Source of the DNA: Gammaproteobacteria bacterium RIFCSPLOWO2_02_FULL_61_13
Lineage (GTDB): Bacteria; Pseudomonadota; Gammaproteobacteria; Eutrophobiales; Eutrophobiaceae
Direction of reading: 5' to 3'
Assembly (NCBI GenBank): GCA_001801865.1
Contig: MGYT01000166.1
Location: forward strand, 10,798-49,443
Length of the DNA: 38,646 bases
A program made the translations under genes and the position numbers. The notes under the pieces were generated by a model, which saw only the letters and a program-made list of their open reading frames with translations, did not search any database and was not told the origin of the DNA. Positions 12,003-24,026 of this stretch are shown here, in pieces. Within the stretch, counting starts at the first letter, position 1; the number at the start of each line of letters is the position of its first letter.

Positions 12003-12775
12003 GTGACGCGCGCCCGGCGGATCGCGACCCGGAACTGCCGCTCATCGCCCACCTGATCGAGCTGCGATCACGGCTGCTGCGCTGCCTGCTGGTGCTGGCT
12101 GGAATATTTCTGGCCACGACCCCGTTCGCAAACGACATTTATGCCATTGTCGCCGGGCCGTTGCTGGCGAAATTGCCTTCTGGCAGCACCATGATCGCCA
12201 CTGAAGTCGCGGCGCCATTTGTCGTGCCGTTCAAGCTGTGCCTGTTTGTCGCGTTGTTTGCGGCCATGCCGTTTGTGCTGTATCAGGCCTGGGCCTTCAT
12301 CGCGCCCGGCCTGTATGAAACTGAACGCCGCTTCGCGGTGCCCCTGTTGCTGTCCAGCATCGCGCTGTTTTACGCGGGCATCGCCTTTGCATTCTTCGTG
12401 GTATTTCCCTTGCTGTTCGGATTTTTTACCGCCACGGTTCCTGCAGGCGTGGCGGTGATGACCGATATCGGGCATTACCTGGATTTTGTGCTGAAGCTGT
12501 TCTTTTCCTTCGGGCTGGTGTTCGAAGTGCCGGTGGCCACGGTGCTGGTTATCTGGACCGGGCTGCTGTCGGCCGCGTCGCTGGTGCGCGCCCGGCCGTA
12601 CATAATTCTTGGCGCCTTCGCCCTTGGCGCCCTGTTGACGCCGGGGCCGGATGTGCTGTCGCAAATCCTGCTGGCGCTGCCGCTCTGGCTGCTGTTCGAA
12701 GTGGGGCTGTTCCTCGGCCGCCGCGTCAACGGCCGGGGCGAGAAAGTTGCGGCGCTGGATCAGTCAACACCCTGA
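11999..12775 (+). CDS. tatC: Twin-arginine translocase subunit TatC
   Basis: TatC is the six-helix membrane receptor that binds the RR motif of Tat substrates. This 258-residue protein has the cytoplasmic N-terminal signature LIAHLIELRSRLLRCL, the first-periplasmic-loop region, the YQAWAFIAPGLYETERR motif and six predicted membrane segments. The ATG overlaps the tatB stop. Its last 12 bases overlap the convergent C13 peptidase gene. A GC-rich palindrome begins 24 bases past the stop, but with no T-run. Confidence 0.97.
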   Translation: MSDARPADRDPELPLIAHLIELRSRLLRCLLVLAGIFLATTPFANDIYAIVAGPLLAKLPSGSTMIATEVAAPFVVPFKLCLFVALFAAMPFVLYQAWAFIAPGLYETERRFAVPLLLSSIALFYAGIAFAFFVVFPLLFGFFTATVPAGVAVMTDIGHYLDFVLKLFFSFGLVFEVPVATVLVIWTGLLSAASLVRARPYIILGAFALGALLTPGPDVLSQILLALPLWLLFEVGLFLGRRVNGRGEKVAALDQSTP

Positions 12776-14221
12776 ATCCGCCTGCCAGCGGCACCGGGCC
12801 GGGCCCGGGCCCGGTAACAGCGAGATTTCTGCGGCATTTTCCACCGGCGCCGGGGGCGGCTGTCCGCGGGCGCGCAGACGCGCCGTCAACTGCTCGAGCA
12901 AAGGCGCGATCTCCGAACCCACCCAAAGCTGTGGCTCTGACGGCGTCAATTCCTCTTCCTCCTCGCGCGCACTCAGGCTGTCCCGGGCGCGTTCAAACGC
13001 GGACACAAATGACAGATCCTTCGGCAATTCCGTGCCGAAGAAAGCCGCGCCAAAGTACGTATACGGACCGTCGTGTCCACAACCGAAGGAACTTCGATCA
13101 CGGCGCGCCGAGGTCATCACCAGCGAATCAGAATTGCGCAGTTCGTCCAGGAACTCCCCGGAAAAGCAGGCCGACACAATTACCACACGGTAACGGATGC
13201 CGGAGCCATCAAGGGCGGCGCGCAGCCCCCGCGGCGTGATCCCCGCCAGTCGGAAATCATCCAGATCCAGGGTCAGTCCCTGCCCCTCTTCGCCGTGGGA
13301 GGTCAGGAACAGCAGCAGAATGTCTTCTTCCGGATCCATCTTGCGCGCAACGCCTTGCAGCGCCGCCTGCAGGTTGTCCTTGCTGGCGAGCGGCAACTGC
13401 TCAAAGGTGCTGTGATTATTCACCAGCAACAAGGTGCGGCCGGTGGCATCGAAGTCGCGGCTGAAAATCTTGGCGGCGCGCTGCACCTCGTTCATGAACA
13501 CATCCTCTCCGGCGTCGCCGGCCACGCCGATAAAATACACATCCACGACGCCGGGGCGGTGATCGAGCAGGCCTCTGGTCCCCTGCCCAAGGAGTTCGTC
13601 CTGCTGAAAGAACAGGCGCTCGACGTCCAGGGAACGGGGCTGTTCGTCTGTCCCCGGATAGGTCCGGGCCCACAACGGTTCCGGGGGCAGAAGGTACCAG
13701 GGCAGAATATTGAAGGCCCCGAAGCTGACCAGCAGCACGGCGCCCATGACGGCGCGCGGTTCCAGCACCAGTCGAATCGCGCGCAGCACGATAATCAGAT
13801 ACCAGATGAGATATACCGGCGTCAGCCAGGTATAAAATTCGGGCGGCACGACCGGGACAAATCTTTCCACGGCATGCACCACTCCGGTGTAGACGCCGAA
13901 GGTCGTGGGGGCAACGGCCAATACCAGCACGCCCAGCGGCAGGGCGGCGGCCAGATCGCGACCGCTGGCGGCGATCAGGATCAGGCTGGCAAAAAACAGC
14001 AGATACAGCATGGACTGGTAATACAGGCCGGTGGGGCTGAACTGCGCGTCCGGCCACACCAGGTACAGGTCATAGCCCAGATTCAGCGCCACGGACAGCA
14101 GGAACAACAGCGTCAACTGCAACAGGTCGGGACGAAACTGCCAGCGCGATACCGGCAACAGCAGTGCCAGCCGCAGGCCGGCAAACAGGTTGCGGGCGAA
14201 ATCAGTAATCAATCGGCGCAT
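12764..14221 (-). CDS. Membrane-anchored C13 family (legumain-like) cysteine peptidase
   Basis: This 485-residue protein has two parts. Residues 1-180 carry about five hydrophobic segments (roughly 33-55, 66-88, 92-115, 130-150 and 156-180), so it sits in the inner membrane. Residues 220-420 form a caspase-like C13 domain with the expected His/Cys dyad: His309 in LLFLTSHGEEG and Cys352 in YRVVIVSACFSGEFLDE, followed by SLVMTSARRDRSSFGCG. The C-terminus is Pro-rich and low in complexity. C13 enzymes in eukaryotes cleave after Asn or act as GPI transamidases; bacterial members are largely uncharacterised, so I give no substrate. It starts 33 bases after the rhodanese gene on the same strand, which suggests cotranscription, and its 3' end overlaps tatC on the other strand. 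Confidence 0.88.
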   Translation of the reverse strand: MRRLITDFARNLFAGLRLALLLPVSRWQFRPDLLQLTLLFLLSVALNLGYDLYLVWPDAQFSPTGLYYQSMLYLLFFASLILIAASGRDLAAALPLGVLVLAVAPTTFGVYTGVVHAVERFVPVVPPEFYTWLTPVYLIWYLIIVLRAIRLVLEPRAVMGAVLLVSFGAFNILPWYLLPPEPLWARTYPGTDEQPRSLDVERLFFQQDELLGQGTRGLLDHRPGVVDVYFIGVAGDAGEDVFMNEVQRAAKIFSRDFDATGRTLLLVNNHSTFEQLPLASKDNLQAALQGVARKMDPEEDILLLFLTSHGEEGQGLTLDLDDFRLAGITPRGLRAALDGSGIRYRVVIVSACFSGEFLDELRNSDSLVMTSARRDRSSFGCGHDGPYTYFGAAFFGTELPKDLSFVSAFERARDSLSAREEEEELTPSEPQLWVGSEIAPLLEQLTARLRARGQPPPAPVENAAEISLLPGPGPARCRWQADSGC

Positions 14222-15792: not shown

Positions 15793-15967
15793 CGCCACGC
15801 CAAATGATCGCAGCACCCGGGACGTGACCCGGTCCATGCTGCCTTTGCACTGCCCGTTGCCGGAGATGAGTCTGTGGAATTCGCACCCCCGGGTGTATCT
15901 TCCCATCGAGAAGTCCGGGCATGCGAAGTGCCCCTATTGCGGCACCGAGTTCGCCCTCAGGGATTGA
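15770..15967 (+). CDS. Small zinc-finger protein (zf-CHCC family)
   Basis: This 65-residue protein has its conserved part in the C-terminal half: a Cys in LHCPLP, then SHPRVYLPIE, and CPYCGTEFALRD. The C-x(n)-H-x(n)-C-x2-C arrangement is that of the zf-CHCC family, which is related to the zinc-binding domain of the mitochondrial complex I subunit NDUFS6. In many beta- and gammaproteobacteria this gene directly follows ilvE, as here, and the 23-base overlap suggests coupling. The function is not established; a role linked to respiratory complex I assembly is only an analogy. Confidence 0.85.
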   Translation: MSDPRHGSATPNDRSTRDVTRSMLPLHCPLPEMSLWNSHPRVYLPIEKSGHAKCPYCGTEFALRD

Positions 15968-15995
15968 AGTCCGCGCCGCTACCTCAGGCAGGCCC

Positions 15996-16904
15996 ATGGG
16001 GCCGTTAATCGTCTGGCGTATCACCGATGGCCGCCGCGGGCACGACAGTCAAAGCCTGGGGTTGACCCAGGCCTTGGGCAGATTGACTCCGTGCCGGAGT
16101 TTCGATTTGCCTGCCCTGCCCTGGCCAGGGGCGCTGGCCGGTTGGCTCTCAGGCAACTTGCCCGGCATGGACAGCTTGCCGAACCCGCATTTGATTGTCG
16201 GCGCCGGACATGGCACCCATGCTTCCATTCTTGCCGCGCGGCGCGCGCGCGGCGGCAAGGCCGTGGTATTGATGCGGCCCACGCTTCCCGCCGCCTGTTT
16301 CGATTTTTGCATCATTCCCGAACATGACCCGGCGCCGGCAAGCGGCCGGATCCTGCGTTCGTGCGGGCCGCTGAACACCCTGTGCGCGTCCACTCAGCAG
16401 GATCCCGCGCGCGGATTGATTTTGATCGGCGGTCCATCCAGGCATTTCCACTGGCGCTTCGACGAGCTGCTGCCGCGCATTCAAACACTGCTGGCCTCCA
16501 GTGGCCTGCGCTGGACTCTGGCCGATTCTCCGCGCACACCGCACTGTGACAGCAACAGAATGGCCGGGCTGCCCGGTGCAGATTTTGTTCGCCACGGAGA
16601 GACCGCTGTGGATTGGATCGAAACCCAGATGCGCTCCGCCGGCACGGTCTGGGTCACCGCCGACAGCATGTCGATGATCTTTGAGGCACTCTCGGCCGGA
16701 TCGGCCGTAGGCATCCTTGAATTGCCGGCACGCCGCACGGATCGGGTCACCCGCGCGATCTCGGATCTGGTCTTGCGCGGCATGGTCATGCCGTTTGAAT
16801 CCTGGCAATCCGGCCACCGCCTTGTCACTCATCGGCCCGCGCTGGCAGAGGCAGATCGATGTGCGGCACTTTTACTGCAGCGTATGACCGCTGGATCAAC
16901 CTGA
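15996..16904 (+). CDS. ELM1 / DUF1022 family protein (glycosyltransferase-like fold)
   Basis: This 302-residue protein begins LIVWRITDGRRGHDSQSLGL and contains HLIVGAGHGTHASILAARRA, CFDFCIIPEHD, LILIGGPSRHFHW and TVWVTADSMSMIFEALSAGSAVGILEL. These are hallmarks of the family named for plant ELM1 (elongated mitochondria 1). Bacterial members are often found with LPS genes and share features of GT-B glycosyltransferases. I chose the ATG at 15996, with AGGCAGG just upstream. The gene follows the zinc-finger gene by 28 bases and precedes a GT4 transferase by one base, so it is probably part of an ilvE-led operon. The biochemical activity is unknown. Confidence 0.85.
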   Translation: MGPLIVWRITDGRRGHDSQSLGLTQALGRLTPCRSFDLPALPWPGALAGWLSGNLPGMDSLPNPHLIVGAGHGTHASILAARRARGGKAVVLMRPTLPAACFDFCIIPEHDPAPASGRILRSCGPLNTLCASTQQDPARGLILIGGPSRHFHWRFDELLPRIQTLLASSGLRWTLADSPRTPHCDSNRMAGLPGADFVRHGETAVDWIETQMRSAGTVWVTADSMSMIFEALSAGSAVGILELPARRTDRVTRAISDLVLRGMVMPFESWQSGHRLVTHRPALAEADRCAALLLQRMTAGST

Positions 16905-16905
16905 A

Positions 16906-18018
16906 ATGCGGCTGACCGTGGTGCAAATATTGCCCGCGCTGGAGTCCGGCGGCGTCGAGCGCGGCACCGTGGAAATTGCACGCGCCCTCGTGGAACGCGG
17001 GCATCGGGCCATAGTTGTTTCCGCAGGCGGGCGTCTGGTGGCCGCGCTGCAAATGGCCGGAGCGGAGCATGTGATGCTGGAGGTCGGGCGTAAATCCCTG
17101 TTCACGCTACGGCAGGTAAAACCTCTGGCGCGGCTGTTGCTGGACAGTGGCGCGCATATTCTGCATGCGCGCTCGCGCCTGCCGGCATGGATTGGCGTAA
17201 TGGCATTGCGGCGGCTGGGCTCGCAGGCGCCACACCTGATCACCACCGTGCACGGCCCATACAGCGTCAATCCCTACAGTGCCGTGATGACCAGGGGCAC
17301 ACCCATCATTGCTATCTCGGATTTCATCCGCGATTACATCCTGGCCAATTACCCGCGCACCCATCCCGGACGGATACGGGTCATCCCCCGCGGCGTCAGT
17401 GCGCTGGAATTTCCGCCGGGCTACCAGCCGCCCGCGGCGTGGCGGGATCGTTGGGAATGGGAATTTCCCCCGTTGCGCGGCAAGATCCTGCTCACCCTTC
17501 CGGCGCGCGTAACCAGATGGAAGGGTCAGGAGGATTTCATCGAAGTGGTGGGACTGCTGCGCGCGCGCGGCGTCGATGTTCACGGCCTGATTGTCGGCGC
17601 GATTGAGCCGCGGCGCCGGGGATTCCTCAATGAACTGAGGGGGCGGGCGCAACAGCGGGGGCTGGAATCCCATGTCAGCTTTCTCGGGCACCGGGACGAT
17701 GTGCGTGAGATCATGGCAAGCTCAGCCGTCGTGCTATCCCTGGCCCGCATTCCCGAGGCCTTTGGCCGGACCGCCCTCGAGTCGCTGAGCCTGGGGATTC
17801 CTGTCGTGGGTTATGACCACGGCGGCACGCGGGAAATACTCGCGCCGATATTTGCCAATGGTCTGGTGGCCCCCGGGGCACTGAATGCCGCGGCGGACCG
17901 GGTCGGCGAAATACTCCTGCAACGCCCGGTCATTCCGGCGCAGCATCCATTCCCGCTGCAACGCATGCTGGATGAAACCCTCGCTGTCTATTTGGGCGCA
18001 GCCGGCCAGCGTCCGTAA
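16906..18018 (+). CDS. Glycosyltransferase family 4-type (GT-B) protein
   Basis: This 370-residue GT-B glycosyltransferase has the N-terminal donor-acceptor cleft motif LPALESGGVERGTVEIARAL and the C-terminal nucleotide-sugar motif RIPEAFGRTALESLSLGIPVVGYDHGG, in which the E-x7-E pair contacts the donor. There are no membrane spans, so it would act on the cytoplasmic face of the inner membrane, probably adding a sugar to LPS core or another lipid-linked glycan. It follows the ELM1-like gene with a one-base gap. Its last 31 bases overlap the convergent sulfotransferase gene. Sugar specificity cannot be inferred from sequence. Confidence 0.92.
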   Translation: MRLTVVQILPALESGGVERGTVEIARALVERGHRAIVVSAGGRLVAALQMAGAEHVMLEVGRKSLFTLRQVKPLARLLLDSGAHILHARSRLPAWIGVMALRRLGSQAPHLITTVHGPYSVNPYSAVMTRGTPIIAISDFIRDYILANYPRTHPGRIRVIPRGVSALEFPPGYQPPAAWRDRWEWEFPPLRGKILLTLPARVTRWKGQEDFIEVVGLLRARGVDVHGLIVGAIEPRRRGFLNELRGRAQQRGLESHVSFLGHRDDVREIMASSAVVLSLARIPEAFGRTALESLSLGIPVVGYDHGGTREILAPIFANGLVAPGALNAAADRVGEILLQRPVIPAQHPFPLQRMLDETLAVYLGAAGQRP

Positions 18019-18806
18019 TCATAGCCAAAATCGTGGCGCAGCAACGTGCTGCAGGTCGCGGAGAAATACGCCCGGTCCTCGCTGCCGAACCAGTCCGCTG
18101 CCGGCCGATTATCGCGCCGCACGACGGTGACGCCGCCAGGGGTGTCCGGGTCGCGCTTTGCCGCCATGCGCTCCTTGCTCGACTCATTGACCCCAACCGT
18201 CAACGCCGCCGCTCCGAGCTGAAGCGCCCAAAATTCGTCGATGCGCATGAGTTCGCGCAGCGGATCGCATTGCAGATCTTCATAACGCACCACCAGGGTC
18301 TGCTTCGGAAAGCGTTGTGCAATCCGGCCCCAGGCATTGCAAAAACGCATGCACCACCACAGATCGTTATTGAAACGTTTCCCGCTCATGTCGCCGCGCA
18401 GAAATTCGCTGAACGGGCAGGCATAGTGTTCCTTCCACTTCTCATAGTTGGCGACCAGGGAGCTGCGCAGGTCACGCACCAATACCACGTACGGCGGCAG
18501 TCGCACTTGCTGTCGTAACCATGGCGATGCCACCAGCAGATGCGGTATTGAATGGCTGCTGACCAGCAGCGGGCCACGCGCATGCACGCGCGCATCATGC
18601 ACACCACCAATGATGTCGTTGGCGTGGCTGTAGCGGGGCGGAGGGAGTACATGCCGCACGGCAATCGCGGTGGCCAGCATATGCTTTAACCAGTGGGTCC
18701 CGGACTGGTGCATGCTGACCAGAAAGCCCGTATAGTCCCGGTGCCTGAGCAGGGAGAAATTGGACAAATCACGGCGCAGGCAGTGGTAATGGAATCGCAG
18801 GCTCAT
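17988..18806 (-). CDS. Sulfotransferase (PAPS-dependent)
   Basis: This 272-residue protein has the two PAPS-binding motifs of sulfotransferases: the 5'-phosphosulfate loop SMHQSGTHWLK (residues 31-41) and the 3'-phosphate motif VVLVRDLRSSLVANY (107-121). The segment SSHSIPHLLVASPWL lies between them. It resembles the Sulfotransfer_1/3 group that modifies carbohydrates or lipids. It is the only minus-strand gene between plus-strand glycan genes: it overlaps the GT4 gene convergently and faces the GT2 gene with a 30-base gap between starts. A likely role is sulfation of the glycan built by its neighbours, which is inference. No PAPS synthesis genes are in the window. Confidence 0.88.
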   Translation of the reverse strand: MSLRFHYHCLRRDLSNFSLLRHRDYTGFLVSMHQSGTHWLKHMLATAIAVRHVLPPPRYSHANDIIGGVHDARVHARGPLLVSSHSIPHLLVASPWLRQQVRLPPYVVLVRDLRSSLVANYEKWKEHYACPFSEFLRGDMSGKRFNNDLWWCMRFCNAWGRIAQRFPKQTLVVRYEDLQCDPLRELMRIDEFWALQLGAAALTVGVNESSKERMAAKRDPDTPGGVTVVRRDNRPAADWFGSEDRAYFSATCSTLLRHDFGYDYGRWPAAPK

Positions 18807-18836: not shown

Positions 18837-19790
18837 ATGCAGGATGTTAGCGCGGTTCCTCGAGCCCATGATAGCGCCGGCGCGGCCATCCGCATCGCCA
18901 TTTGCATCCCCACCTACCGGCGCAATGATCTCCTGCGCCTATGCCTGGCTGCCGTTGCCAGTCTGCGCCCGCCTGACGGCAGCAGATTACTGGTGCTGAT
19001 TGCTGACAATGACGCCAGCGGCGGCGCCCGGGCAGTGTGGAAAGAATCGATGCAGTCCAGCGCTATGCAGACATTTTATTTTGTCGAACCCCGGCGCGGT
19101 CTGTGCTGCATCCGGAACCGGTTGGTACAGGAGGCGCTGCGTACGGGGGCGGCGTGGATCGCATTTGTCGACGATGACGAGCAGCCGGCGCCCGACTGGT
19201 TGCAGGCGCACATGCATTCGTTATCGGCCTCCGGTGCGGACGTTTCCTGCGGGCCGGTAATCCTGCGTGCCAGCGGCGCGGTTATCGGGGCTGAGCCGGA
19301 TTCCGGTTCGGTTCCGGATGCAACACCGCGCTCGCCGCGCTTTGTCGCCTGCAACAATGTGCTGTTTCGGCGCAAGTTAATCGCGGAACAGGGCCTGCGC
19401 TTTGATCCCCTTTTCAATTTTACCGGCGGCGAAGACTTTGATTTTTTCGAGGCCTCCCGGCGTTGTGGTAATCGTCACATCTGGACCGCGGCGGCACAGG
19501 TATATGAATCACTCACTCCGGAACGGTCGACGCTCCGGTACCTTTTTCACAGACATTGGTCCGGCGCCATGACCCGCGTCTTGCAGCAACGCAAATGGCA
19601 GGGTGCAGGCATGGTCTGGCCCCGGTTCCTGCTGAAGATTTGCGGCAAGCTGCTGGGCGGAACAGCATCCCTGTTGTTCGCGTTGCTGCCACCGCATCGA
19701 CGCGCCATGGAGGACTGCATCAAGCGCTACGCCAGTGCCTGGGGTTATTTGTGCGGCCTTCTTAACCTCTACCGTGAACGTTATCGCTAA
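18837..19790 (+). CDS. Glycosyltransferase family 2 protein
   Basis: This 317-residue GT-A transferase begins with IRIAICIPTYRRNDLLRLCLAAV and has the metal-binding DDDE (Asp112-Glu115) in IAFVDDDEQPAPDW. Later blocks include RFVACNNVLFRRKL and FTGGEDFDFFEASRRCG, followed by a C-terminal hydrophobic stretch (LLKICGKLLGGTASLLFALLP) that could tether it to the membrane. I chose ATG 18837; an in-frame ATG at 18789 would run into the divergent sulfotransferase start. The gene is followed after 10 bases by the O-antigen-ligase-like gene and is likely cotranscribed with it and the GT9 gene. Confidence 0.9.
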   Translation: MQDVSAVPRAHDSAGAAIRIAICIPTYRRNDLLRLCLAAVASLRPPDGSRLLVLIADNDASGGARAVWKESMQSSAMQTFYFVEPRRGLCCIRNRLVQEALRTGAAWIAFVDDDEQPAPDWLQAHMHSLSASGADVSCGPVILRASGAVIGAEPDSGSVPDATPRSPRFVACNNVLFRRKLIAEQGLRFDPLFNFTGGEDFDFFEASRRCGNRHIWTAAAQVYESLTPERSTLRYLFHRHWSGAMTRVLQQRKWQGAGMVWPRFLLKICGKLLGGTASLLFALLPPHRRAMEDCIKRYASAWGYLCGLLNLYRERYR

Positions 19791-19800
19791 GGCGGGGCCG

Positions 19801-21084
19801 ATGACGGGAAATCGATTCCTGCAACACGCGCGCGCCCGGTGGTCATGGCTGCACAATAATCTGGCCTGGCTGCTCATGGCGACCACATTGGCGTTGTTCG
19901 CCACGGAAACCCTGTTCAATGTGCCCTTCTGGCTCATGGCAGTTGCAGGCCTGTATCTGTCGATCAAGGCGCCGCGCGCGTTGTGGCGCGAGCCTGTTCT
20001 ACGCCTTGCCGGATTGCTGTTTCTTTGTATTTGGCTGCCCCAATTGCTGGCATTACCGGACGCTGCAAACCTTGGTCGCAGTCTCGAAACCGTTATCGCC
20101 TACCCGCATTTCTATTTCGCCGGCGTGTACATTCTGCGCGCGCTTCAGGATCGGCAAACCCGCGATCGGCTGGAAATGGCGATCTCAATCATAGTCACGG
20201 TCTGGATCGCAGACGCGTTGGTACAGTATGTTGCCGGCGCGGACCTGTTTGGTTATCCCTATCGCCCGGGGCAACTCACCGGGATGTTTTATCCCAAAAT
20301 CAGTCTCGGACACCTGCTCGCTGTCCTGGCGCCCGTATATTTCGAGACCGTGCGACAACGCTGCGGCGGCCGGCCCTGGCTTTGGCTGCTGGCGGCATTG
20401 CTGCTACTCACGGTCGTATTGCTGAGCGGCAGGCGCGTGGCCTGGTTGATGACGGGCCTTTCATTTGCCGGATACATACTTTATCTCTATCGCATCAATG
20501 CCATGTCCTTGCGTACGATTGCACTGGTTTTTGCAATCGGCGTGCTGGGTGGAAGTGCTGTTCTGGCGACAAACCCGGCCGTCGCGCGACGAACCGCCGT
20601 CCTGCTCGGCCTGTTCAGTGGTAATGCCAAGGACATGGACCAGGCCACCTCCCACCGACTGCCCTTATGGGGAACCGCCCTGCACATCGCCTCCAGCCAC
20701 TGGATCAATGGCGTAGGTCCGCGTGGTTACCGTTACGTGTTCCGTGAATACGCCGGGGATGACAACTTCTATCTGCGCAATGGCAGGGACGGGCAGACGC
20801 ACCCGCACCAACTGGTGCTCGAGGTGGCCACGGAAACCGGAGCAATTGGATTGTCCGGTCTGATCTGTTTCTGGTGGCTATTTATGACTGCGGGCTGGCG
20901 CCGCCTGCAGGCCACGCTGGACGGTGCGCCGTGGCTTATCGCCGGACTCGTGGCATGGTGGCCGCTGAACGCGCACATGGCGTTTTATGGATCCTACTGG
21001 TCAGCGGTCAGCTGGTGGGTGTTGTTGCTTTTGCTGGCGCCGCGCGGCGCGTCAGCGCCCGAACCATCATGCACAAGATCCTGA
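19801..21084 (+). CDS. O-antigen ligase (WaaL) family membrane protein
   Basis: This 427-residue, very hydrophobic protein has about 10-12 predicted membrane segments and a large periplasmic loop (roughly residues 280-345) containing SHRLPLWGTALHIASSHWINGVGPRGY and THPHQLVLEVATETGAIGL, the signature region of the Wzy_C/O-antigen ligase family, including its conserved histidine. Such enzymes join an undecaprenyl-linked glycan to the lipid A core, or act as related ligases or polymerases. WaaL and Wzy are hard to tell apart by sequence; the core-transferase neighbours favour WaaL. The start at 19801 has AAGG upstream, 10 bases after the GT2 gene. It overlaps the following GT9 gene by 16 bases. 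Confidence 0.85.
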   Translation: MTGNRFLQHARARWSWLHNNLAWLLMATTLALFATETLFNVPFWLMAVAGLYLSIKAPRALWREPVLRLAGLLFLCIWLPQLLALPDAANLGRSLETVIAYPHFYFAGVYILRALQDRQTRDRLEMAISIIVTVWIADALVQYVAGADLFGYPYRPGQLTGMFYPKISLGHLLAVLAPVYFETVRQRCGGRPWLWLLAALLLLTVVLLSGRRVAWLMTGLSFAGYILYLYRINAMSLRTIALVFAIGVLGGSAVLATNPAVARRTAVLLGLFSGNAKDMDQATSHRLPLWGTALHIASSHWINGVGPRGYRYVFREYAGDDNFYLRNGRDGQTHPHQLVLEVATETGAIGLSGLICFWWLFMTAGWRRLQATLDGAPWLIAGLVAWWPLNAHMAFYGSYWSAVSWWVLLLLLAPRGASAPEPSCTRS

Positions 21085-22025
21085 TCATCAAGTTAGGCGC
21101 GCTGGGCGACATCATCATGGCGTGCCCCATTATCAAACGCATCCAGGAGCATCACGGGGATGCCGGCATATATCTTCTTACCAGCGATGCCCACCGGGAT
21201 TTCTTTGGCCACTGGCCGGGCCTGGCAATACACAGTTTTGCCCGCCATGGCCTCGGCTCAACGTTACATGCCATGCGCTGGATTCGGGCGCAGCATTTCG
21301 AACGCATCTACGATTTACAATCCAATGATCGGTCCGGGCTGTTGTGCGCGATCAGCGGCGTGCGCGAGCGTGTCGGCAACCATCCGCGTTACCCGTATAC
21401 CATCCATCCGCATCAACCGTGGCGGGGCAAGACCCACATTCAAGAACGCTGGCGTGAGGTTCTCGTCAGCGCAGGGATTGACCCCGGGCCGCTGTTACCG
21501 TGGCTGCCGATACCGGATCAGGAGCGGCAGGCGGCGGCAGCCTGGTTGCGGGAGCGCCGCCTGGAGCGCACCCCTTTTGCGATCCTGCACGCGGGCGCAA
21601 GCCCCCGCCATCCGGAGAAACGCTGGCCTTGCTTTCGTGAACTGGGTGTCGCAATCCGTAGTGCAGGCATGGAGGTGGTATGGGCCGGGGGCGCCGACGA
21701 CGTGGCGCTGACGCATGAGTTGGCAAATCATGTCGGTATCGACGCAAGTGGGGCGTTATCGCTTACACAACTGGCTGCCCTGGGGGTGCATGCGCGCTTC
21801 GCTGTCACCAATGATTCAGCGCCCATGCATGTCCTTGCCTGCGCCGGCATCCCGGTGTTCGGATTATTCGGACCGACGGACTGGCGCATAAATCACGCCG
21901 TCGGACAGCGGGAATTTGTCATCAGCGCGAGTCCGGAGACGGAAAATTTTGTGCCTGTCCCTCTTTCCAGCCTGCCGGTTGCAGACGTGACAAAGAGACT
22001 GCGCATTGCCGGTTTGCTGGGTTGA
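21069..22025 (+). CDS. Glycosyltransferase family 9 (heptosyltransferase-like) protein
   Basis: This 318-residue GT-B protein of family GT9 begins MHKILIIKLGALGDIIMACPIIKRI, the ADP-heptose transferase start signature. It carries the C-terminal AVTNDSAPMHVLACAGIPVFGLFGPTDW, which binds the donor, and FAILHAGASPRHPEKRWP mid-way. In LPS synthesis GT9 enzymes add heptose to the inner core; it may correspond to WaaC, WaaF or WaaQ but I cannot tell which. The ATG lies inside the 3' end of the preceding ligase gene (16-base overlap), pointing to coupling. It converges on the minus-strand GT4 gene with a 25-base gap holding no clear terminator. Confidence 0.9.
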   Translation: MHKILIIKLGALGDIIMACPIIKRIQEHHGDAGIYLLTSDAHRDFFGHWPGLAIHSFARHGLGSTLHAMRWIRAQHFERIYDLQSNDRSGLLCAISGVRERVGNHPRYPYTIHPHQPWRGKTHIQERWREVLVSAGIDPGPLLPWLPIPDQERQAAAAWLRERRLERTPFAILHAGASPRHPEKRWPCFRELGVAIRSAGMEVVWAGGADDVALTHELANHVGIDASGALSLTQLAALGVHARFAVTNDSAPMHVLACAGIPVFGLFGPTDWRINHAVGQREFVISASPETENFVPVPLSSLPVADVTKRLRIAGLLG

Positions 22026-22050: not shown

Positions 22051-23085
22051 TCAGGGGTTCCTTGGCATGCCTTCGTAGACTGCCAGCAATTGCGGCACGA
22101 CCGCATCGGCGCTATAGCGCGAAACAAAGTAATCGGTTGCGCACGCGGCACGGGTCCTGGCCGTCGCTGGGTGCGCCAGCACCAGCATCAGCGCCTCGGC
22201 CAGCGCTGCGCTGTCTCCCGGCGGAACCAGTATGGCGCTGGCAGCATCGAGAATTTCCCGCGGCCCCTGAGTCGATGTAGCAACGATCGGGAGGCCGCGC
22301 GCCATGGCCTCCAGCACGACGATGCCAAACGGCTCATCCAATGAGGGCAGTACAAACAGGGTGCCCTGATCCAGAAAGGCGACCGGGTCGGTTAGCCAGC
22401 CGGCGAAACGCACGACGCCCCCGAGTCCCTCGCGCAAGGATGCCTGCTCCAGTTTTTTCCGGAGCGGGCCATCGCCGCCGATCAGCACCGGCGGCAAGGG
22501 GACGTCGCGCCGGCGCAGGTCCGCCAATGCGGCCAGCAGTATATGAAACCCCTTCTTCTGCACCATTCGTCCCAGGGCGATAAGGGCGGCAGGCCGATCC
22601 GGCGGCGGTGTCATCGCCGGTAACACGGAAAAATTGGGCACCACCTGCATGCGCTCGGCAGTAATGCCGCATTGCCGCAGATAGGCGGCCTGATCCCGGG
22701 TGGCCGGCAGAAATTTGTTCACGCGGGCGTAGTATTTAATGTTTACGTAATTATGCGTCATGCTTAGCAGCGGCACTTGAGTGTCCCGCAGTGCTGTACC
22801 AGTGTGGAATGCAGCGCGGGCCAAATGGGCCTGCACCACCGCCGGCCGAAATGCCTCGATGAGCGCGCGCAACCGCCCCGCGGTAAAGGGATCCCAATTG
22901 CCCAATGAACGGACGGTGGCAATCTCGAGTCCTGCCATCCGCCCCAGGCGTTCCCGCGCCATGCCGGACGGATGACATATGGCGAGAACGTGATGGCCTC
23001 GGCGTGCCAGTTCCTGTGACAGGTCCACGAAATAGCGTTCGGCGCCGCCGAAGCCTTTTGCCAGCATGACGTGACAGATACGCAT
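22051..23085 (-). CDS. Glycosyltransferase family 4 protein
   Basis: This 344-residue GT-B transferase begins MRICHVMLAKGFGGAERYFVDLSQEL and ends with the donor-binding motif SLDEPFGIVVLEAMARGLPIVATSTQGPREIL. The glycosyl-acceptor half includes VVQAHLARAAFHTG and the linker PDRPAALIALGRMVQKKGF. It is most like cytoplasmic-face LPS core or O-chain transferases. I chose the ATG at 23085, two bases after the GT9 stop; the open frame reaches further upstream without family homology. It is the last gene of the minus-strand run rpmH-rnpA-yidD-yidC-mnmE-GT9-GT4. Confidence 0.92.
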   Translation of the reverse strand: MRICHVMLAKGFGGAERYFVDLSQELARRGHHVLAICHPSGMARERLGRMAGLEIATVRSLGNWDPFTAGRLRALIEAFRPAVVQAHLARAAFHTGTALRDTQVPLLSMTHNYVNIKYYARVNKFLPATRDQAAYLRQCGITAERMQVVPNFSVLPAMTPPPDRPAALIALGRMVQKKGFHILLAALADLRRRDVPLPPVLIGGDGPLRKKLEQASLREGLGGVVRFAGWLTDPVAFLDQGTLFVLPSLDEPFGIVVLEAMARGLPIVATSTQGPREILDAASAILVPPGDSAALAEALMLVLAHPATARTRAACATDYFVSRYSADAVVPQLLAVYEGMPRNP

Positions 23086-23087
23086 GC

Positions 23088-24026
23088 TCACACAGCCAGC
23101 GATGGGACGTTTTCCGATCGACATGCCATCACTTGCGCACGCAACTGATTGAGCACATCCGTTACCGGAAGCCGATTCAGGTCGCGATCCGGTCCCACCA
23201 GCCACGCCGCTCCGGGCCCCCAGGGGCGATAGCGCGCCGGATCGCCGACACCGAAAAGGGTCAAGGTGGGTGTCTGCACCGCGGCAGCGATATGACCCAG
23301 GCCGGAGTCGTTGCCGACAAAGATTTGCGCCTGTTTGAGAACGGCGGCAGCCTCAAGCAGACCGGTCTTCCCGGTTAGATTCAGGCATGGAAATGGGGCG
23401 GCCGCGGCAATGGCGGCCGCGGGCAGCCGATCACCTGCGCTCCCCAGCAACACCACTGCGTCAAACTCGCCGTGCAACGACTCGGCCAACTCGATGAAGC
23501 GCCGTGCCGGCCAGATCTTGGGTGGCCAGTTCGCGCCCGGTCCCAGCGCCAGCAGGCGCCGGCCGGCAAACTCGCCCAGCAGGTTGCGCGCGAATTCGTG
23601 CTGGGCGGGACCAAGCCATATGCGTGGGGAAAACTTTTCCAGGTCCAGCGGTACACCTGACATGACACCGAGATGCTGTTGCACCGCATGCGGACCGGAT
23701 GCGCGCCCCTGCCAGCGAAAGAAACGGCGTCGTGCGCGGATCAGCAACGGCAGAAAATCCGTGCGCAAATCCACGACCAGGTCGTAGCGGACAGTGCGCA
23801 AATCGACCAGCAAACTGGCCAGGCCACGCAGCGCCCGCTGTTTATCCTTGTGGATGACGCGGCCAAGAAAAGGACAACCGGAAAAGATCTCGCTGGAACG
23901 GCGATCGCCAACAATGTCGACCCTGGCAGCCGGTTCGAAGGCGTGCAGGGCCTGTAATACCGGAGTGGTCATAATGGCATCACCGATATTGCTCAAACTG
24001 ACAAGCAGAAATCTGGGCGCGTTCAT
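23088..24026 (-). CDS. Glycosyltransferase family 9 (heptosyltransferase-like) protein
   Basis: This 312-residue GT9 protein has the start signature FLLVSLSNIGDAIMTTPVLQAL and the donor-site motif IFVGNDSGLGHIAAAVQTPTLTLFGVGDP. The central GPGANWPPKIWPARRFIELA block matches ADP-heptose:LPS heptosyltransferases. It is a diverged paralogue of the GT9 protein encoded at 21069-22025. Its ATG overlaps the mnmE stop by four bases, so a glycan gene is translationally coupled to a tRNA-modification GTPase. Inner-core heptose addition is the likely job but is inferred from the family only. Confidence 0.9.
   Translation of the reverse strand: MNAPRFLLVSLSNIGDAIMTTPVLQALHAFEPAARVDIVGDRRSSEIFSGCPFLGRVIHKDKQRALRGLASLLVDLRTVRYDLVVDLRTDFLPLLIRARRRFFRWQGRASGPHAVQQHLGVMSGVPLDLEKFSPRIWLGPAQHEFARNLLGEFAGRRLLALGPGANWPPKIWPARRFIELAESLHGEFDAVVLLGSAGDRLPAAAIAAAAPFPCLNLTGKTGLLEAAAVLKQAQIFVGNDSGLGHIAAAVQTPTLTLFGVGDPARYRPWGPGAAWLVGPDRDLNRLPVTDVLNQLRAQVMACRSENVPSLAV

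Follow-up and report, generated by a model that had tools for sequence, protein, structure and literature searches.

A 38,646-nucleotide stretch of contig MGYT01000166.1 (positions 10,798 to 49,443 of the forward strand; assembly GCA_001801865.1) from Gammaproteobacteria bacterium RIFCSPLOWO2_02_FULL_61_13, hereafter the window, carries on its minus strand, among genes for glycosyltransferases (GTs), a gene at 17988..18806 encoding a sulfotransferase-like protein with the predicted fold of the cytosolic sulfotransferases (SULTs), which we call ST. ST belongs to a clade whose members have replaced the near-universal lysine of the phosphosulfate-binding loop, and which is tied to a locus of lipopolysaccharide (LPS) type. 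The gene itself, named as a sulfotransferase in the original prediction from the letters alone, stands: it is an exact ATG-to-stop open reading frame (ORF) of 272 amino acids, matching Pfam family PF00685 (Sulfotransfer_1; E=8.1e-11, 42.2 bits against a curated cut-off of 22) and, just above its cut-off of 27, PF13469 (27.7 bits). PF00685 is likewise matched (E<=0.001) by all 23 members of our alignment A1, made up of the window protein and the near-full-length copies from 21 named loci, one of which (L041) contributes two rows. No Stf0/LpsS model (PF09037) appeared among the Pfam matches of ST at E<=0.1, and an NCBIfam scan returned zero matching models. An AlphaFold2 model built from A1 (mean predicted local distance difference test score 86.3, predicted template-modelling score 0.86) drew 99 PDB matches at E<=0.001 in Foldseek (best E=1.0e-06); in a second look with VIA-align, the top match was 1q20 (Z 17.6, root-mean-square deviation 3.7, 241 aligned residues, 19% identity), and sulfotransferases made up 50 of the 50 matches listed, which are the highest-ranked chains. 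Profile matches and this predicted model, which has the beta-sheet fold that binds 3'-phosphoadenosine 5'-phosphosulfate (PAPS) and scores a Z of about 17 to SULTs, together show a SULT fold and membership of the sulfotransferase family. Homologues in 11 of the 53 genomes of its family, its own included, make a chance ORF untenable and, with the purifying selection described below, rule out a pseudogene or spurious ORF.

Alignment to solved enzymes places the 5'-phosphosulfate loop of ST at residues 31-39 (SMHQSGTHW; 18690..18716, on the minus strand, as are all residues given here), with Gln34 (18705-18707) at the position of the lysine expected from the PKSGTTW and PKSGTHW loops of those enzymes. 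His85 (18552..18554), the presumed catalytic base, aligns with the SSH of SULT2A1. The 3'-phosphate motif, residues 111-119 (RDLRSSLVA; 18450..18476), retains only the arginine of RXXXDXXXS: R111 is kept, Ser115 replaces the aspartate and Ala119 the serine. Lys211 (18174..18176) falls at the column of a SULT phenylalanine that we take to stack on the adenine of the donor; in the open PMC literature, which leaves subscription papers uncovered, we found no statement of the Phe229/Trp53 adenine contact. The original claim that ST has both binding motifs is thus half right, holding for R111 and failing for the loop lysine and for positions 115 and 119. An ordinary SULT with both motifs intact is ruled out by Gln34, Ser115 and Ala119, and by the residue counts across the clade.

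These counts depend on how the sequences were gathered. The 23 named loci were found by six peptide patterns, MHQSGTHW among them, so that Gln34 was partly selected for in that set; the family-, class- and phylum-level searches were run with the full-length protein or with a profile, which for class and phylum was made from A1. At family level the profile recovered the same 11 genomes as the protein, all 11 protein matches having Gln at position 34, and the order-level search covered the same 53 genomes. In the class sample 12 of 369 genomes matched, five of them strongly (own included; four with Gln at position 34, one with Asn) and seven at 51-74 bits in the profile search, while of 398 genomes in the phylum sample 6 did so, this genome among them; the remaining five (222-292 bits) lie outside the class and are probably Alphaproteobacteria. 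Clade counts were taken over 31 distinct sequences, all above 220 bits; neither these counts nor the alignment include two partial copies, L043 (covering just residues 1-65) and L044 (just residues 193-265). In L043, a contig labelled Zixiibacteriota, the match (L043:1772-1966) stops after 65 residues identical to those of the gammaproteobacterial L025, and a binning error or chimera is suspected.

Column 34 in the 31 clade sequences holds Gln in 24, Asn in six and His in one, and Lys or Arg in none. His85, Arg111, Gly36 and Trp39 are each invariant (31/31), column 211 is Lys in 30 and Arg in one, column 115 is Asp in just two, and column 119 is Ser in 27 and Ala in four. Ten outgroup sequences (50-75 bits) have Lys34, Asp115 and Ser119 without exception (10/10 each), with Phe in five, Tyr in three, Leu in one and Lys in one at column 211; among the top 30 PF00685 loci in the class, the 27 readable at the loop position all have Lys. 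Judged from these sequences, loss of the loop lysine is a trait of the clade. Two observations complicate so simple an account: the five lowest-scoring clade members, all outside the class (L088-L092), read KNSGTHW, with Lys one residue upstream of its usual place, so that in these the residue may have moved and not disappeared, and one outgroup sequence likewise has Lys at column 211.

The genes around ST are those of a glycan locus. On the plus strand lie an ELM1-type putative glycosyltransferase (PF06258, E=6.4e-56; 15921..16904) and a GT4 glycosyltransferase identified by domain scan (GT4a; 16906..18018), the latter tail-to-tail with ST and overlapping its 3' end by 31 bp (17988-18018). 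Beyond ST the plus strand continues with a GT2 glycosyltransferase (18837..19790; the listed ORF begins at 18693, ATG 18837 being the likelier start), divergent from ST and starting about 30 bp from it, a membrane protein of the Wzy_C/O-antigen-ligase family (19735..21084, start uncertain; E=1.4e-15) and a GT9 heptosyltransferase-family protein (GT9a; 21069..22025; E=5.1e-21). On the minus strand follow a second GT4 glycosyltransferase (GT4b; 22051..23205, start uncertain; E=3e-32) and a second GT9 heptosyltransferase-family protein (GT9b; 23088..24026; E=2.7e-35). The placement first proposed for ST, oppositely oriented between four plus-strand glycan genes, is correct in orientation but undercounts the setting, which has five such genes and then the two on the minus strand. 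Beyond the glycan locus lies what we take to be the dnaA region. The gene names ilvE, mnmE, yidC, rnpA, dnaA, hisA, hisF and tatC are provisional assignments from sequence, whereas the class-IV aminotransferase domain is backed by a domain scan. A Kdo-transferase-type gene (Kdo, 3-deoxy-D-manno-oct-2-ulosonic acid; PF04413, 170 bits) is present in the genome, which makes LPS plausible. Also within the window, a minus-strand membrane protein at 12764-14221 resembles caspases in its C-terminal portion (NF047832; E=1.5e-7, at 31 bits below the cut-off of 140), and a 47% homologue of it occupies the same place in locus L026.

Comparison of neighbours in the named loci, by tblastn with the window proteins, found ST on the opposite strand beside GT4a in 14 of 21 (L022, L025, L026, L028, L029, L031-L034, L037-L040 and L042), its other flank being mostly GT9a and otherwise Wzy_C or GT2. 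In two further loci, L069 and L070, ST is co-oriented with GT4a, ELM1 and an ilvE-like gene, and in L069 the ORF ends overlap by 1-4 bp in an operon-like manner. Pairwise distances of ST correlate with those of GT4a (r=0.913, 15 loci), GT9a (0.849, 13 loci) and mnmE (0.804, 12 loci), and those among the other locus genes correlate at 0.698-0.832 (0/2000 permutations in every case). The shared slot and the correlated trees rule out a recent horizontal gain restricted to this genome. Between the window and L022, ST has a nonsynonymous divergence (dN) of 0.149 and a synonymous divergence (dS) of 1.19, indicating purifying selection in this one pair, and its dN is the lowest of the seven proteins compared in that pair (GT4a 0.224, mnmE 0.249, GT9b 0.278, GT4b 0.279, GT9a 0.309, Wzy_C 0.352), dS across the compared proteins being 1.1-1.7 and so near saturation. 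One of the slot-keeping loci, L034, sits on a contig labelled as a Klebsiella pneumoniae metagenome-assembled genome (MAG) although the locus is related to those of uncultured gammaproteobacteria; mislabelling or a binning error is probable.

The original prediction named PAPS supply as something to look for in the genome, and the genes are there, away from the ST locus: one strong adenosine 5'-phosphosulfate (APS) kinase (contig C177, 222.6 bits) and one ATP sulfurylase (contig C50, 255.7 bits), from which PAPS can probably be made. The same genome has 15 places matching PF00685, of which the seven read by motif search are all Arg-type, so that other enzymes are probably served by the PAPS supply as well, and its genes say little about ST. 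Across the family, a strong APS kinase (>100 bits) is found in 9 of 11 ST genomes and 25 of 42 others, a comparison of plain counts that we do not use as evidence for the donor. The C177 kinase (genome G000, locus L045) itself belongs to another glycan cluster, which also has UDP-sugar dehydrogenases, MBOAT/AlgX, an ATP-binding cassette (ABC) transporter and several sulfotransferase-family genes and is likely a sulfated exopolysaccharide locus.

We consider ST to be, with somewhat better than even confidence, a cytoplasmic SULT-fold sulfotransferase of an uncharacterised subfamily that has a remodelled PAPS pocket and most likely sulfates an LPS-core-type oligosaccharide. ST would bind PAPS in this pocket and, with His85 as base, move the sulfuryl group in the cytoplasm to a hydroxyl of a lipid-linked core sugar supplied by the glycosyltransferases encoded around it, so that the sulfate ester would be in place before export and ligation; the role of the lost lysine might be covered by hydrogen bonding from Gln34 or by another residue, such as the clade-specific Lys211. 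That ST is active, that PAPS is its donor and that LPS core rather than another glycan is its acceptor are all points that we infer, the acceptor from locus context. The surface-glycan sulfation originally proposed is supported in part, by the LPS-type GT locus, the correlated distances and the PAPS genes. Sulfate transfer by ST is presumed; the loop residue usually regarded as catalytic is replaced clade-wide, a point that the original prediction missed.

Several findings weigh against this reading. PMC11625862 lists, as features common to sulfotransferases, a His base, the RXXXDXXXS motif and Lys or Arg in the loop, and makes this loop residue part of a working definition of polysaccharide sulfotransferases; ST has the His but lacks the Lys or Arg expected of a PAPS-dependent SULT-type enzyme, and its 3' motif has lost both Asp and Ser. 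GT9a and GT9b score below the NCBIfam heptosyltransferase cut-offs, so that 'LPS core' is itself our interpretation of the locus. GT4a occurs in 45 of the 53 family genomes and ST in 11, which implies that the locus does not need ST; of 13 loci without ST in place, hand-chosen from the 45 GT4a genomes and including one (L086) from a genome that has ST, 9 have their next matched glycan gene within 100 bp of GT4a, which suggests that the locus is the older part and ST an optional extra. Since all pairs of locus trees correlate, their agreement speaks for long co-inheritance and is no proof of shared function. ST is off the slot in 7 of the 21 named loci (L023, L024, L027, L030, L035, L036 and L041), with neighbours that include a flippase-like gene and an asparagine synthase (L027), a GT9, a P450 and an EamA protein (L030) and a methyltransferase (L036); in L041 ST is still beside mnmE, without the matched GTs. 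Finally, two ST genomes sit awkwardly with a PAPS donor: G001, 91% complete, gives no APS kinase match, and in G020 the APS kinase match is limited to 43 positions where a contig ends. Apart from these points against, L041 comes from a MAG labelled Thiobacillus and has two ST genes in tandem beside mnmE (L041:9163-10795). Four copies outside the class (L123-L126) lie in no glycan locus recognisable from ORF starts, no domain scan having been made of them.

The off-slot copies, notably the contexts of L027, L030, L036 and L041, lend themselves to a different account, in which ST is an active PAPS sulfotransferase whose acceptor is something other than LPS (a glycolipid, a small molecule or a different glycan of the envelope) and which simply tends to be encoded at this locus; genome G050, where the GT locus (L086) is complete but lacks ST, which is encoded some 262 kb off on that contig, points the same way. 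We regard this as a credible but unlikely alternative, given that 14 of the 21 named loci retain the slot, that ELM1, GT4a and ST form operon-like groups in two more genomes, and that glycan genes lie near some of the off-slot copies as well. It is also unlikely, in our estimate, that the clade at this LPS-type locus, next to the dnaA region, rebuilt its donor pocket to modify the LPS core by a different chemistry or from a different donor (PAPS without the loop lysine, or something other than PAPS), a proposal prompted by the lost loop lysine, the lysine gained at the SULT phenylalanine column and the lost aspartate of the 3' motif.

A SULT-fold protein that has moved past normal PAPS use altogether, taking another donor or transferring another group to the same glycan, could explain why the pocket changed in concert, with Lys replaced by Gln, Asn or His at position 34 (31/31), Asp kept at 115 in only two and the aromatic residue at 211 replaced by Lys or Arg (31/31); we find it improbable, however, because the invariant Trp39, Gly36, His85 and Arg111, with Ser119 in 27 of 31, resemble a retained PAPS-type site, and because PAPS is probably made in most ST genomes. 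Most doubtful is the view that ST is catalytically dead and that its sulfotransferase fold now serves binding or regulation, since the His base and Arg are invariant and ST shows the lowest dN among the seven proteins compared (one pair), both of which suggest a kept active site, a counterpoint limited by the fact that a binding role would be conserved too.

Among known systems, the cytosolic SULTs of PF00685 (SULT2A8 7d1x, SULT2A1, SULT2B1 1q20 and SULT1E1) share with ST the fold (Z about 17), the SGT-x-W loop, the His base position and the Arg of the 3' motif, and SULT2A8 7d1x also matches by profile over residues 23-231 (E=5.2e-12); ST differs in its loop Gln, its Lys211 at the Phe column, its lost 3'-motif Asp and its bacterial GT locus. 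The canonical SULT RKGxxGDW motif (excerpts of PMC6969939) corresponds to VVRRDNRPAADW in ST. The nearest sequences outside the clade in the class search, gammaproteobacterial 'KSGRTW' sulfotransferases (L060-L068; 51-74 bits), differ from ST in keeping the loop Lys and, within the 3' motif, both Asp and Ser, with column 211 mostly aromatic. LpsS of Sinorhizobium meliloti is an LPS-modifying sulfotransferase, sulfated LPS being known in rhizobia (excerpts of PMC12445080 and PMC6192434); it resembles ST in its proposed role but is listed under the Stf0 family (PMC12445080), whereas ST falls in PF00685/PF13469, a separation made by family assignment. The capsule cluster of Cobetia marina (excerpts of PMC11766843), like the ST locus, has sulfotransferase coding among GT genes for a gammaproteobacterial surface glycan, with more than one sulfotransferase gene, but it is an ABC-transporter capsule locus with its own PAPS genes, whereas the ST locus is of LPS type with its PAPS genes elsewhere.

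The original remark that sulfation is uncommon in gammaproteobacterial LPS is fair, with precedents: a sulphated O-specific polysaccharide in Pseudoalteromonas marinoglutinosa (excerpts of PMC3210612) and a sulfated O-polysaccharide in Cobetia litoralis, known here from a title in the reference list of PMC11766843. The available excerpts of the review PMC4052302 give only a sponge-derived sulfated 'LPS'. In open PMC papers, subscription papers not being covered, we found no description of the lysine-less clade, and no open PMC paper turned up with both 'sulfotransferase' and 'SGTHW'. Sulfated LPS, then, is already known, gammaproteobacteria included; what is new is the link between an LPS-type locus and a subfamily without the loop lysine. 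Profile annotation labels the proteins of this clade ordinary sulfotransferases, a label that needs qualifying. If ST is active, the clade would be a natural test of whether the near-universal loop lysine is required, in a substitution that evolution made and selection kept, and the gene would help to recognise, from genome data, sulfated LPS among many gammaproteobacteria that are uncultured.
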